Assembly: GCA_003134995.1 (NCBI GenBank)
Contig: PLDC01000025.1
Location: forward strand, 306,882 to 370,881
Origin: Acidobacteriaceae bacterium
GTDB taxonomy: Bacteria > Acidobacteriota > Terriglobia > Terriglobales > Acidobacteriaceae
Reading direction: 5' to 3'
DNA: 64,000 nt
Both the position numbers and the translations under genes were made by a program. The notes below the pieces were generated by a model. It ran no database searches. It saw only the letters and a list, made by a program, of their open reading frames with translations, and was not told where the DNA came from. Numbering within the stretch: the first letter of the stretch is position 1; every line of letters starts with the position of its first letter. Positions 8,256-15,059 of the stretch are shown piece after piece.

Positions 8256-9010
8256 GCAGCGGATGGGACTATCCGTTCTACTTGGCGTCGTTTTGCTCCG
8301 CTGACGGACGAAGCGTCCGCCGCTCCATGAGTTTTGGTGGTGCTGGCGGACAGCGGGTTCCTCCGCTGCGCCGTCCCCTTCGGCTTCGCTCAGGGTCCCG
8401 CTCCGGTCGGAATGACAGGGCCTGTGACTGGGCCACGAGCAACGTCAAGGGCAAGGTCAAAGTCAAGGTCAAGATCAAGATCAAGATCAAGGTCAAAGGC
8501 AACGGACAGGAGTGTCCGTTCCACACGTGCAAAAGCAACGTCAACGTCGAGGGCTGCGCTGCGGGCGTTCGTTTTCCCACTTCTCGCAAGGGACGCGAGA
8601 AGTGGGGCATCCCCGTTTGATTAGGTGCCGGCGAAGTCAAAGTTAAAAGCTGCGGATGGGACTGTCCGTTCCGCATGGGCGTCGCTTTGCTCCGCTGACG
8701 GACGAGGCGTCCGTCGCTCCATGAGTTGTGGTGGTGCCGGCTGACAGCGGGTTCCTCCACTGCGCCGTCCCCTTCGGCTTCGCTCAGGGCCCGGCTGCGG
8801 TCGGAATGACAGGGCTTGAGACGGTGGTACGAGCGACGTCAATTGCAACGTCAAAGTCAAGATCAACGTCAAGGGCAACGGACAGGAGTGTCCGTTCCAC
8901 ACGGGCGTCGCTTTGCTCCGCTGACGGACGAGGCGTCCGTCGCTCCATGAGTCGTGGTGGTGCCGGCGAAACCAAGGTTCCTCGCTTCGCTCGGAATGGC
9001 ATTTGTGAGG
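8256..9010. repeat. Composite tandem repeat region
   Basis: Spacer between the ATPase gene and purQ built from repeated modules. A module holding CTCCGCTGACGGACGA, GCGTCCG and CGCTCCATGAGT, then TGGTGGTGC, occurs three times (8288-8350, 8690-8745, 8917-8966). The block GCTTCGCTCAGGG plus GTCGGAATGACAGGGC occurs twice. Two arrays of six-base GTCAAG-like units (8447-8500, 8838-8876) each run into an identical GGACAGGAGTGTCCGTTCC block (8506, 8879). Unit order suggests duplication of a ~400-bp stretch. Open frames across it in both directions are repeat artefacts. Confidence 0.8.
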
Positions 9011-9943: not shown

Positions 9944-11176
9944 ATGACGTCGAAGCAGATTCTCGATGCTTTTTCTGAAACGTTGATGCAGGACGAACGA
10001 ATCCTCAGCCCGCGGGAGCGCGAGCTGCTGATGAGTCTCCTGCAAAACTCCAGAGCAGTTTCCAGCAGCAATCCTGAAACACAATCCGCGGTAAGCGCAA
10101 CCATAGCTCGCACGGTGGGTGAAACAGTAGCGCAACGTGCATTCACGTTGTTAGGCGGCAGCATTGTGGAGCAGATCCTGGCAAGCGCGGGAATGCCCGC
10201 GTGGATAGAAGAGACGATGCCGGTCGTGGCCGGACCCGGCGCGCCACAGCCTCCGGGCAATGCGCCGCAACCGCCGGGAGTGAAGCAACCGCCCATGAAG
10301 AGTCCGGGAGCGCCGCAGCCACCGGGAGCGCCGCAACCGCCGGGAGCGCACAAGCCCGGACGCGAACCGGACCCACCGAGTTCACGTCCGCCGATGAAAA
10401 GTCCGGGGGCACCGCAGCCGCCGGGCGCGCCGCAGCCTCCGGGTGTGGAGAAGCCAGAGCGCGGGCCGCAGCCTCCGTCGCATGGTCCGCAGCCGCCGAG
10501 TGCTGTGCGGCCGTTGAGCGTTCCTATGCAGCATAGCGCTGGGTCGGGCAACGGAGTTGGTGTGTTGGAGGCACCGGCGATTGCGCGGGCACAGTGCGTT
10601 GTGCTGGATGAGTTTCTTGCTCCGCAGGAACTGGATGAGTTGGTGAACTACGCGCTGCAACACGAGGCGGAGTTTCAAAACAGCGCTGTGGTTTCGCCTA
10701 GTGGTGATCCGGGAGCGCTCGATTACTCGCATCGGCGCTCGCGCGTGCTTATGGATTTGGGAAAGCATGAGCAAATTATTCTGGAGCGAATCCGAGGCGT
10801 GTTGCCGAGTGTGTTGGAGCGGCTGGGAGTGGAAGAGTTTCCGATTACGAATGTGGAAGCACAGATCACGGCCAGCAATGACGGCGATTTTTTTGGCGCG
10901 CACTGCGATGACTCGCAGGAGATAATTGCGTCCCGCCGAATTACGTTTGTTTACTTCTTTCAGCGCGAGCCACGGCCGTTTGAAGGCGGAGAGTTGCGGC
11001 TTCACGACTCGAGTGGGAGCGATGCGCATGCGGAGAGTTATCAGAAGATTGTTCCGCAGGCGAATCAAATTGTGTTCTTCCCGTGCTCGGTATTGCACGA
11101 GATAACCGCAGTGGAGTGCCCGTCACGGGCCTTCGCTGACAGCCGATTCACCCTAAACGGATGGCTACACAATTAA
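9944..11176 (+). CDS. Prolyl-4-hydroxylase-like 2OG-Fe(II) oxygenase with internal PPG-rich collagen-like segment
   Basis: 410 residues. The start is fixed by GGGAGGAG 8 nt before the ATG; upstream in-frame methionines lack one. Three parts are visible. Residues 1-95 are mostly helical and unfamiliar. Residues 96-190 are a Pro/Gly/Gln tract with six copies of [GN]APQPPG, two of GPQPPS and a duplicated PPMKSPG unit. Residues ~215-410 form a double-stranded beta-helix oxygenase with iron ligands H320, D322 and H385 and a 2-oxoglutarate-binding R401 in RFTLNGW. Enzymes of this fold hydroxylate proline and other residues. The next gene, also an oxygenase, overlaps its last 16 bases, so the two are probably translated together. 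Self-hydroxylation is only an inference. Confidence 0.8.
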   Translation: MTSKQILDAFSETLMQDERILSPRERELLMSLLQNSRAVSSSNPETQSAVSATIARTVGETVAQRAFTLLGGSIVEQILASAGMPAWIEETMPVVAGPGAPQPPGNAPQPPGVKQPPMKSPGAPQPPGAPQPPGAHKPGREPDPPSSRPPMKSPGAPQPPGAPQPPGVEKPERGPQPPSHGPQPPSAVRPLSVPMQHSAGSGNGVGVLEAPAIARAQCVVLDEFLAPQELDELVNYALQHEAEFQNSAVVSPSGDPGALDYSHRRSRVLMDLGKHEQIILERIRGVLPSVLERLGVEEFPITNVEAQITASNDGDFFGAHCDDSQEIIASRRITFVYFFQREPRPFEGGELRLHDSSGSDAHAESYQKIVPQANQIVFFPCSVLHEITAVECPSRAFADSRFTLNGWLHN

Positions 11177-12210
11177 AAGACACGGCATGGCTTGAATGGA
11201 TTGCAGGCCTGATGGGGGTGGGGTCGCGGCAAACTCTTACCGCGGCGCTGCCCCCCGGGCAATTCCATTGTTTGCTGGATGAGTTGCCGATGCACTTGGT
11301 TCCGCAGCGGCAGCTTCGGGCCTGGTGTTGGTGGATGGACTTTTCTGCGGAGCAGTTGTTTGTTAATCCGGAGTGTTCGGTTCTGCGTGGTGGGCAGGTG
11401 CCGGTCGAGTTGGAACCTCATCGGGATTTGCTCGAGAATTTTTACTTGCAGGGAACTATGGCTTGGGTGCGTGATGCGGCTACTGGTGCGCTGAATCCAT
11501 TTTGGCTTGGTCCGCGGACGGAAGCGGTGGTTTCGAAACTTTGTGCCGGAGAACCTGTGCCTGCTTCCATTCCGGCGGATTTGCGCAGGTTGCTGGCGGG
11601 TGCTGGGATTCTGATTCCGGAGGGATATGGTGAGCGGCGTCTCGCGGAGTGGGCTGACGTTGTTCGAAAAGGCGCACAGCACTTTCGAGAACATGGTTAC
11701 GTGCCGCTGGGGCGCTTGATTCATCCGTATAATCTGGCGGCTTTGCGGCGCTATTACCGGCACGCTATTCGGAGTGGAGCGATTCGGCTGGGCGATGAGC
11801 AGAGTTCGCGGAGATACTTTGCGCACAATGAGAGCGTCGCCCGATTCTTCCATCATCAGATTGCGAACGCGGTTGGCGCGATCACGGGCGAAGCGGTGAA
11901 GCCTTCTTATGTTTATTTTGGCTCTTACTTGAGCGGCGCCGAGTTGAAGAAGCATACCGACCGGGAACAGTGCGAGTTCAGCGTTACGTTATGTCTGGAT
12001 TTTTCTCCGGAGCCGGAGTTGGCGACTTCGTGGCCTATACGGCTGGATACTCCGGAGGGGACGGTTAAGGTTTATCAGGCTTTGGGCGATGGGTTGGTTT
12101 ACCGCGGACCTCGGGTGCCTCATTACCGGCATGTGCTGGGTGACGGGCTTACGTCGACTTCGATTTTCTTTCATTATGTTAGGGCGGATTTTGAAGGGTC
12201 GTTGGATTAG
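11161..12210 (+). CDS. Second 2OG-Fe(II)-oxygenase-like protein, overlapping the first
   Basis: 349 residues starting inside the last codons of the upstream oxygenase gene (16-nt overlap). Residues ~1-160 include a Trp-rich segment and no known domain. Residues ~165-345 look like a 2OG-Fe(II) dioxygenase: candidate iron ligands H265 and D267 in KKHTDREQCE, and a distal histidine in RVPHYRH (H321 or H324). No clear arginine for 2-oxoglutarate follows at the usual spot, so activity is less certain than for its neighbour. The overlap implies coupled translation and a shared task. Confidence 0.65.
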   Translation: MATQLKDTAWLEWIAGLMGVGSRQTLTAALPPGQFHCLLDELPMHLVPQRQLRAWCWWMDFSAEQLFVNPECSVLRGGQVPVELEPHRDLLENFYLQGTMAWVRDAATGALNPFWLGPRTEAVVSKLCAGEPVPASIPADLRRLLAGAGILIPEGYGERRLAEWADVVRKGAQHFREHGYVPLGRLIHPYNLAALRRYYRHAIRSGAIRLGDEQSSRRYFAHNESVARFFHHQIANAVGAITGEAVKPSYVYFGSYLSGAELKKHTDREQCEFSVTLCLDFSPEPELATSWPIRLDTPEGTVKVYQALGDGLVYRGPRVPHYRHVLGDGLTSTSIFFHYVRADFEGSLD

Positions 12211-12368: not shown

Positions 12369-14921
12369 TTAGTGCAGCCCCGAGATTAGATAGAGCACGG
12401 AGAAGACTTGGTGGTAGCTGTAGGCGAAGCGGGAGCCGTCGCGGCTCATGACTACCGGGGCGACATTGATTACTCCGACTGTTGTCTCGGGCTGCAATTC
12501 CTGAATGAGAGTCTTCTCACCGGTCGTCAGGTTGACCTTGTACACTTTCGTCGGAATGTGACCTCGAAGATATCCGTAAACGGAAGAGTTGTCATCCGAC
12601 CATTGGAGCGGGATAAACGTCGACTCAAGACCGGGAATGAGATGGGGTGCTATGCCACCGGCGGTGGGATAGACAACAACTCCCGCGTCGTCGTCGCTGC
12701 GGATAATATATTTGCCGTCGGGAGAGATCAGGCCACTGGTAACTCCTTCGGGCGTGATCGGTGTTGGTTTTCCTCCCTCAAAATCCACTAAATACATGCG
12801 CGCGCCGTGGCCGGCTTCGTTGGCGTTGATGGTGATGTGTTTTCCGTCTGCGAGAAAATGAACGTTGCCGTTGTCGATGTGCTCGAGGCCGGGTAGCGAA
12901 ATCGTACGAGGTTGACCCGGGCCGAGCGGAACCAGCGTCACGCGCCCCGGATTACCTACCAGAACGGAAATCGCCCATTTGCCGTCGGGAGAAAGGCCGC
13001 CGCCGCTGCCTTCCCCCAGTTGCACAGGCGGAGTACCGTCGAGTTTGCGAATCGCGAGCGCGTAATGGGTTCCGGCGGCTTCACTGGCGTCTTCAAAAAA
13101 AATCGACTGGCCATCGTGCGAAATATCCTTGGCAGTGGTCCAATCGCGCCAGGAAACATCTACGGCTTTGCCGTCGCGTGCCGTGGTCTCCATGGCTACG
13201 CGTTCGGCATCCACGCTGATCAGAACTCGACCATCCGGGGCCACGTCCTCCAAAGTCATGCCCGCAGGCACCTCGAGGATTGTTCGAGTGCGTCCAGACA
13301 TATCGACGGCGTGCAGGCCGCGGCTGATGCCCTTTTCGACGGCCGTAAACCAAACTTCTTTGCCATCGGGACCCCAGGCCAGGCCGTCCTCCGATTCCCA
13401 CTCGTCCGAGAGCACGGTCATACGGCCGCTAAGGTCGATGACCGAAACGTGGCCGCGGTCATCCCATAGCGCAGGATGGTCCATGAAAGCGATCTTGTCA
13501 CCTTGCGGCGAGACGCGAATATGGCTGATCCAACCCTTGCTTTGGTAGAGAGAATGACCGATGGGATATTCGATTCGATCGCTGTTTTGTGTGCGATGGA
13601 CTACGGCGAGTTCACCGCTCGGAGACCAATCTGCCCACGGGACGTTTTCGAGAACCTCGCGTGGGGAACCTCCGGCCAGCGGTGTGCGGGCAAGGGTGGC
13701 GCCTTCGACCTCCAAGTGTGCGGCATACTTTCCGCGGAGAGCGACCGCGAGTTCGCCGGTGCGGGAGATCGAGAGCAGGGCTGCATCGGCGAGAACGAGC
13801 GGCTGACTTAGAAGGGAATCGCCGACGGTGGAGAAGAGCTGAATCGGGTTGCCGTTCCAGGATGCGCCATACACAATCGTCCGATAGTCGGGGGCGAAGC
13901 GAGCCGAGTACAGTGTGCCTTGTTCATAGGTCAGACGTTGGTAAACGGGAGATTGGGCGCGATGTTGCCAGCGATTGGCCAGCAGCCATAGCGTTGCAAC
14001 CAGCAACGCTGCGGCAACTGCCCAGGGAACGATGGCTGGCTGCGGTCGGGGACGGGCCTTGAGCCGGACTGGTGCGGTAGTGTCTGCCAGAGTGTCGAGC
14101 GCAAAGGCTAGATCGCGTGCTGATTGGAAACGATTCTCCGGCTCCTTCTCCAGGCAGTGGCGGACGATCTGCTGAAAGGGTACGGGGACGCTGGCTTGCT
14201 CGAGATTAATTTCGGCGGGATCTTCTTTGAGCACTGCGGTGATTGTGTCTACTTCGGTCTCGCCGCTAAAGGCTCGGTGCCCGGACAACATTTCGTAAAG
14301 AATTGCGCCCATGCTGAAGATGTCGCTGCGGTGGTCTACGGCCTTGGCTCGAAGCTGCTCGGGCGCCATATAGGCGACGGTGCCGACGATTACGCCGCTC
14401 TTCGTTACCGTGGTCATTTCCTCCACGGAGCGTTCGGCGTCTTCCGGCGCGGATTGCAGCTTGGCTACACCGAAGTCGAGAATCTTAACGCGCCCGTCGG
14501 TAGTGACGAAAAGATTTTCGGGCTTGAGGTCGCGATGGATGATGCGGTGATCGTGCGCGGCGATTAGTCCCTGTACGATTTGCTGGGCGTAGTCGAGGGC
14601 GAGGCGGGCGGGCAAGGCTCCTTCGGTGAGGCGCTGGCGGAGGGTGTTGCCCTGAAGCAATTCACAGACTATGTAGGGAGATCCGTCGTGGAGGCCGACG
14701 TCATAAACGGCGACGATGTTTGGATGATTGAGCGCGGCGGCGGCGCGGGCTTCGAGTTCGAAGCGGCGGAGGTGATCGGGATTTTGGCTGGAGGCGGGGC
14801 GGATCAGCTTGAGAGCTACATCGCGCCCTAGCCTTTCATCGCGGGCGCGGAAGACTTCGCCCATGGCTCCGGAGCCAATCTTCTCGATGACCCGATAGTG
14901 ACCTATAACTTGGTCATTCAT
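12369..14921 (-). CDS. Transmembrane Ser/Thr protein kinase with TolB/WD40-like sensor half
   Basis: 850 residues from the ATG at 14921; an ATG 24 nt earlier is possible. Residues 1-270 form a Hanks-type kinase: glycine loop GSGAMGEV, K38, catalytic loop HRDLKPEN (129-136), DFG 149-151, APEQ in the activation segment, so it should be active. One membrane helix follows at ~300-325 (VPWAVAAALLVATLWLL). The remaining ~520 residues are a repeated beta region with SPDGK and ApDGRV motifs typical of TolB/WD40 propellers, placed outside the membrane. This architecture is common in Acidobacteriota; it presumably senses an extracytoplasmic ligand and phosphorylates cytoplasmic targets. It is monocistronic. 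Confidence 0.9.
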   Translation of the reverse strand: MNDQVIGHYRVIEKIGSGAMGEVFRARDERLGRDVALKLIRPASSQNPDHLRRFELEARAAAALNHPNIVAVYDVGLHDGSPYIVCELLQGNTLRQRLTEGALPARLALDYAQQIVQGLIAAHDHRIIHRDLKPENLFVTTDGRVKILDFGVAKLQSAPEDAERSVEEMTTVTKSGVIVGTVAYMAPEQLRAKAVDHRSDIFSMGAILYEMLSGHRAFSGETEVDTITAVLKEDPAEINLEQASVPVPFQQIVRHCLEKEPENRFQSARDLAFALDTLADTTAPVRLKARPRPQPAIVPWAVAAALLVATLWLLANRWQHRAQSPVYQRLTYEQGTLYSARFAPDYRTIVYGASWNGNPIQLFSTVGDSLLSQPLVLADAALLSISRTGELAVALRGKYAAHLEVEGATLARTPLAGGSPREVLENVPWADWSPSGELAVVHRTQNSDRIEYPIGHSLYQSKGWISHIRVSPQGDKIAFMDHPALWDDRGHVSVIDLSGRMTVLSDEWESEDGLAWGPDGKEVWFTAVEKGISRGLHAVDMSGRTRTILEVPAGMTLEDVAPDGRVLISVDAERVAMETTARDGKAVDVSWRDWTTAKDISHDGQSIFFEDASEAAGTHYALAIRKLDGTPPVQLGEGSGGGLSPDGKWAISVLVGNPGRVTLVPLGPGQPRTISLPGLEHIDNGNVHFLADGKHITINANEAGHGARMYLVDFEGGKPTPITPEGVTSGLISPDGKYIIRSDDDAGVVVYPTAGGIAPHLIPGLESTFIPLQWSDDNSSVYGYLRGHIPTKVYKVNLTTGEKTLIQELQPETTVGVINVAPVVMSRDGSRFAYSYHQVFSVLYLISGLH

Positions 14922-15059
14922 GCTGCAATAACGCCCCGCTGGCATGTTAGGGGCGCATGTAGGTTGGAGTCAATCACCTAATCGGGGAAGTGGCCGGCCC
15001 GAATGGGGGATGGGGGAAGTGTTTAAGTAACCGCACGGCACTCTTGCTGCCCCCGGCAC

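Follow-up and report, generated by a model that had tools for sequence, protein, structure and literature searches.

What does a bacterial prolyl-hydroxylase-like enzyme do with a repetitive proline-rich segment in its own chain? The question is raised by two overlapping genes, P1 and P2, in a stretch of 64,000 nucleotides from an Acidobacteriaceae bacterium (the window), which lies in a genome of 5.6 Mb; the relatives that share the gene pair and its locus bear the names Candidatus Sulfotelmatobacter or Acidobacteriaceae. The features are collected in Table 1. The first-pass annotation had described a protein composed of a helical N-terminus, a proline-rich tract and a prolyl-hydroxylase-like domain, whose gene overlaps by 16 nt with a gene for another oxygenase, and this layout is borne out by the gene coordinates, an AlphaFold (AF2) model, the Pfam family PF13640 and fold matches. 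P1 begins with an ATG that has the ribosome-binding site AGGGAGGAG 8 nt upstream. The overlap with P2 measures 16 nt in 30 of 33 homologous pairs and 22 nt in the other three, and through it we infer translational coupling of the two genes.

Table 1. Features of the P1-P2 locus in the window
Feature	Position	Strand	Size	Basis or remarks
P1: N-terminal helical domain, proline-rich repeat tract, prolyl-hydroxylase-like Fe(II)/2OG oxygenase	9944..11176	+	410 aa	ORF, PF13640, fold matches
P1 residues 1-82, three-helix N-terminal domain	9944..10189	+		AF2 helices, conservation, genus-wide search
P1 residues 93-190, proline-rich repeat tract	10220..10513	+		6 APQPPG, 2 GPQPPS, two PPMKSPGAPQPPGAPQPPG copies spaced 33 residues apart; predicted disordered
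P1 residues 203-410, oxygenase domain	10550..11176	+		PF13640, invariant residues, fold matches
P1 catalytic residues	H320 and D322 at 10901-10909, H385 at 11096, probable 2OG-binding R401 at 11144	+		
P1/P2 overlap	11161..11176	+	16 nt	conserved
P2: unclassified Fe(II)/2OG-oxygenase fold with N-terminal alpha/beta extension	11161..12210	+	349 aa	model, HxD...H
P2 metal-ligand residues	H265 at 11953, D267 at 11959, H321 at 12121	+		
K: Ser/Thr protein kinase with beta-propeller-like C-terminal region	12369..14945	-		PF00069 4.5e-53; convergent with P2

Which chemistry is P1 likely to perform? A Pfam search matched PF13640 to its last 200 residues (1.1e-16), and in the AlphaFold model three helices at the N-terminus are followed by a disordered middle part and a double-stranded beta-helix (DSBH) that is predicted well. 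H320 and D322, the residues earlier proposed as catalytic, are invariant in an alignment of 32 homologues together with H385 and R401. When the catalytic domain was compared with known structures (Foldseek and a second alignment), the top matches were almost only protein prolyl hydroxylases; the best included P. putida PPHD (4iw3, Z 19.9), PHD2 (~19), OGFOD1 (18), Tpa1 (17.8), an algal P4H (17.2) and the Trichoplax PHD. P1 has the DSBH fold, the HxD...H motif and the 2OG-binding Arg/Lys by which protein prolyl hydroxylases of the PKHD/P4H type are recognised, and from established knowledge of the matched families protein prolyl hydroxylation is its likeliest activity. The predicted N-terminal helices span residues 3-16, 23-39 and 44-81 (pLDDT mostly 74-88), and D17, L21, E25, G59, E60, R65 and G71 are conserved in this domain in the homologue alignment.

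P2 matched no Pfam or NCBIfam family, nor did its homologues convincingly. Its AlphaFold model (pLDDT 90.5) is a DSBH with Z ~15 to 2OG enzymes, and H265-x-D267...H321 is invariant in 36 aligned sequences; P2 thus combines the fold and the HxD...H motif of an Fe(II)/2OG oxygenase, as the second gene had been read before. Its closest structural matches are of several kinds (a Burkholderia oxygenase, SnoN, HalB and PHDs) and therefore do not narrow the substrate class. An RRE/PqqD domain suggested by eye (GE..S...L...GIL) was rejected, as hhalign against eight PqqD sequences gave a probability of ~1% and the order of elements in residues 66-153 of the model (E E H E E H H E) is not that of an RRE. 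Two relatives of P2 were seen in other surroundings: a distant P2-like protein with 22% identity lies within an NRPS cluster on a Burkholderia glumae plasmid (L204, 5230-6768), and in an Acidobacteriota MAG (L130, 3372-6476) the surroundings of a P2 homologue, which include an HPr-kinase-like gene and a PqqD domain with a Cys-rich tail fused to it, look RiPP-like.

Is the tract of P1 collagen-like, as had been proposed from its PPG motifs? The count of six [GN]APQPPG and two GPQPPS units was correct, proline makes up 29% of the tract versus 4% of the remaining protein, and TRF detects a repeat with a 99-nt period at 10289-10477. A tract is present throughout the tracted orthologue group (20-29% Pro versus 3-5% in other parts), and its repeat unit differs by species, being PQPPS, PQPPT, PQPPA, PQPPG, PDPPG, PPHPPGPNPPG, APRPPSPGPPSPG or, in two Acidiferrales MAGs (L115 and L117), GPGPK. 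PQPPS is the commonest unit over the homologues, with 70 occurrences compared to 27 of PQPPG, 14 of PQPPT and 11 of PQPPA. PPG is one of several unit endings and is absent from some homologues, and the Gly-X-Y periodicity of a collagen-type substrate, looked for in P1 and its homologues, was not found, so that the proposed link to collagen falls away. The tract is conserved in kind and not in sequence, and PPG or collagen is not its theme. No comparable gene with a double-PQPP tract stood out elsewhere in the genome of the window; two double-PQPP sites outside P1 lie in stretches without a convincing gene, one giving no open frame that contains the motif.

Are the repeat copies held at the protein level? 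In repeats picked by protein similarity, with simulation as the only control for this selection, 793 codons compared between within-gene copies contain 302 synonymous and 45 amino-acid differences, with 43% of the four-fold sites changed. The two PPMKSPGAPQPPGAPQPPG copies in the window have nine codon differences and zero residue differences. At non-proline positions the differences are 166 synonymous versus 43 amino-acid. Simulation in which only the prolines were kept yielded an amino-acid/synonymous ratio of 0.48, compared to the observed 0.15, and simulation without constraint left 7 of 4000 repeat pairs detectable. A contrast that is independent of choosing repeats between genes, and that comes from a single gene in a single MAG of the same family (G501, locus L200), points the same way. 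The tract of this P1 consists of eight 26-residue units, in which the 14-residue core FAPRPPSPGPPSPG varies at none of its 14 positions in protein and at 11 of 14 in codons, whereas the spacer changes in protein at 7 of its 12 positions (Fisher p = 0.0012 for core versus spacer in the first seven units). This pattern is what would be expected from many copies of one functional peptide with spacers between them.

These results bear on the possibility that the tract is a stiff polyproline spacer between docking helices and an oxygenase that acts on another protein, such as EF-Tu or a ribosomal protein, its slippage repeats being roughly kept for rigidity. PPHD-like enzymes of known function target folded proteins such as EF-Tu, not repeats, and this counts against a substrate fused to P1. 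Translation proteins are the targets of PPHD, OGFOD1 and Tpa1, whose folds are nearest to that of P1 (4iw3 was solved with EF-Tu), and a spacer would also agree with the predicted disorder of the tract and with the differences in its length and unit between species. A mere linker needs prolines, not exact copies, however, and the conservation of non-proline positions, the gap between 0.48 and 0.15 and the fixed core beside the free spacer in G501 all speak against it. We consider a pure spacer rather unlikely, though it is the main rival of a fused substrate.

A further view of the tract comes from pairs that lack it, whose occurrence is in itself in line with a spacer. Bare P1-P2 pairs were found at L063 (G181), at L064 (G172, from another genus of the family) and at L121/L065 (G030, PMHV01000008.1), the last belonging to a Sulfotelmatobacter genome with two pairs, of which the other is tracted. 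The P1 of G172 has neither the helical domain nor the tract. A 68-aa proline-rich ORF (8660-8866, MTDISTSDAGRRSMQCSPPGGPKPGHVPGAAPTAPRPGPPPGAAPTAPKPGPKPGPVPGAAPTSRPKT, 29% Pro) with an AAGGAG site, also lacking the N-terminal domain of P1, stops 15 nt before the start of this bare P1, which argues against a spacer function; this arrangement was seen only once, and the same stretch is also open in another frame. No further locus of this kind was found in the genus of G172. The first-pass annotation had named tractless homologues in the same context as evidence against its proposal; this applies in part, since homologues without a tract exist (L063, L064 and L121), but the only one to keep the same three-gene context, L064, has its separate proline-rich ORF instead. 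Since bare pairs such as L063 and L121 exist, the enzymes can serve other substrates, and this counts against a fused substrate.

What, then, would P1 and P2 do together? In its simplest reading the tract of P1 looks like a substrate of its own enzyme, given the conserved repeat copies, the core held over the spacer in G501, the adjacent ORF in G172 and the fold, and this part of the earlier interpretation has indirect support while its collagen link and its RiPP leader have none. We put at about even odds (roughly 0.5) that P1 hydroxylates the tract in its own chain at proline, either in cis or from one P1 molecule to another, with P2 acting on the same segment. The pair would form a two-oxygenase protein-modification module. 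We infer an order of events in which P1, a presumably active, cytosolic prolyl-hydroxylase-type Fe(II)/2OG enzyme carrying a disordered multi-copy proline-rich segment, would hydroxylate this segment in the same or another P1 molecule, the helical N-terminus may hold P1 molecules or P2 together, and P2, made from the overlapping frame, would add a second oxidation. Only tentatively do we extend this to a bacterial class of substrate-fused prolyl hydroxylases, in which lineage-specific multi-copy cores of the enzymes themselves would be hydroxylated and passed to P2, giving hydroxyproline-rich proteins.

The same repeats could be imagined as a multi-core RiPP precursor from which modified cores are excised to leave the cell as small peptides, with the N-terminal helices as leader, much as the first-pass annotation had suggested a precursor fused to its modifying enzyme. 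The multi-unit architecture in G501, with its constant core and drifting spacer, suits such a precursor, and fused precursor-enzyme chains are known in borosins, as outlined in PMC8429565 and PMC7878506. The surroundings do not fit: no protease, exporter or recognised RiPP enzyme was found among the neighbours checked, and ~40 neighbourhoods of the pair have no protease or exporter in common. A search for the leader region in 45 genus genomes never found the N-terminal domain without the oxygenase, and the N-terminal part of P2 has neither PqqD similarity nor the element order of an RRE. Moreover, the tract precedes the catalytic domain and lies between two conserved domains, so excision would split P1. 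An excised and exported product is thus improbable.

How old is the pair, and do other genes belong to it? A search of 61 relatives recovered P1 in 31, every one within the genus, and P2 occurs in 37 of 45 genomes of the genus; no match was found in phages. Presence and absence are joint in the genus genomes, seven of which lack both genes (G001, G006, G015, G029, G031, G456 and G459); MAG errors could mimic single cases but not the pattern. In G456, without the pair, PurQ directly adjoins YebC at a distance of 258 bp, and G027 (L142, 5710-6815) is a natural case of decay, with a frameshifted P1 directly before YebC and with P2 and the kinase missing. To judge from these distributions, the pair is an old module, conserved in soil acidobacteria: it occurs genus-wide in Ca. 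Sulfotelmatobacter and in other Acidobacteriota, and homologues of the two genes lie side by side in Streptomyces and on a plasmid of Eleftheria. The genes neighbouring the pair are PurQ, the kinase K, YebC, TlyA and NAD kinase. Practically all tracted pairs have K behind P2 in convergent orientation, even where PurQ or YebC has moved off (L115, L117 and L120), and an orthologue of K adjoins the bare pair of G172, as the best match of that genome (880 bits versus 713 for the next). From its position K may belong to the P1-P2 module. As a proline-rich target K was rejected, its juxtamembrane region having no conserved proline repeats in homologues. That the proline repeats instead recruit a partner, or P1 itself, as a polyproline ligand, with hydroxylation aimed at that partner, perhaps K, would agree with repeats conserved as protein and with K beside the pair in nearly all contexts, G172 included, but is a long shot given the juxtamembrane region of K, the persistence of K without the pair in G029 and a unit sequence that changes between species too freely for a fixed ligand.

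How does a substrate-fused P1 compare to known systems? Plants, algae and animals are the classic sources of hydroxylated proline-rich proteins, which to our knowledge are hardly known in bacteria. P1 shares its catalytic fold (4iw3, 2.9 A over 184 residues) and the HxD...H/R residues with Pseudomonas PPHD (4iw3, 4j25) and with HIF PHD2, but at only 17% identity, and it differs from them by its N-terminal helices, its proline repeat tract and its constant pairing with P2. The fold is also that of the plant, algal and Chlorella-virus P4Hs acting on proline-rich repeats (3gze, the algal P4H with a (Ser-Pro)5 peptide, is the structure matched), in which enzyme and substrate are separate, whereas the repeats of P1 lie in the enzyme chain or, in G172, in an adjacent ORF; viral P4H with peptide substrates has been described (Eriksson 1999, as cited in PMC12333218). 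Borosins of the OphMA type likewise have the modifying enzyme and its core substrate on a single chain, but, as far as PMC8429565 and PMC7878506 outline them, with an N-methyltransferase and a C-terminal core, compared to the oxygenase, the mid-chain tract and the lack of processing genes in our case. The parts are known, namely the prolyl-hydroxylase fold, proline-rich repeats and an enzyme-substrate fusion as outlined for borosins (PMC8429565); their combination, and P2, appear to be new, and the arrangement seems not to have been clearly described in bacteria earlier. Literature mostly from outside subscription journals, searched for Sulfotelmatobacter or Acidobacteria with oxygenases or hydroxyproline and for RiPP prolyl hydroxylases, gave no description of this combination. 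If the preferred reading is true, the principle of fusing an enzyme to its substrate, known from borosins, would gain a second chemistry, and the dozens of natural unit variants would offer a ready series for learning what a prolyl hydroxylase reads. P2 defines an oxygenase family that has no entry in Pfam and turns up repeatedly next to sulfotransferases, glycosyltransferases and NRPS genes.

Finally, the surroundings of bare and distant pairs differ from those of the window. At L063 and L065/L121 the bare pair seems to share an operon with the genes that precede it, which encode a family-2 glycosyltransferase and two giant proteins (~1,100 and ~1,400 aa). In the L063 copies searched, the giant proteins have no Pfam domain; the first giant protein of L065 has a proline tract, KPIVPVKPIVPV, near its N-terminus. 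Hydroxylation and glycosylation of a large protein is possible at these loci. A similar island was seen in three phyla (L125 and L127-L129 in Streptomyces and Nonomuraea, 3135-10843 of L202 on an Eleftheria terrae plasmid, and L195 in G493), with glycosyltransferase-like gene(s), DUF1826, an Asp/Asn beta-hydroxylase and, one directly after the other, a P1-like oxygenase and a P2-like one that is fused to a sulfotransferase; not each gene was checked in each genome. The islands resemble our locus in the order of the two oxygenases and differ in the sulfotransferase fusion, in the accompanying genes and in their P1-like protein, which has a different N-terminus and no proline repeats. Judged by the bare pairs and the islands, the two oxygenases seem to be a general module for modifying proteins or peptides, to which one lineage has added a proline-rich segment. 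Upstream in the window, the intergenic region 8278-8902 contains a similar stretch twice (translated SFRP...ERSRRGRRSGGTRC...PSAEQ) with simple repeats in between, which is probably a small dispersed repeat.
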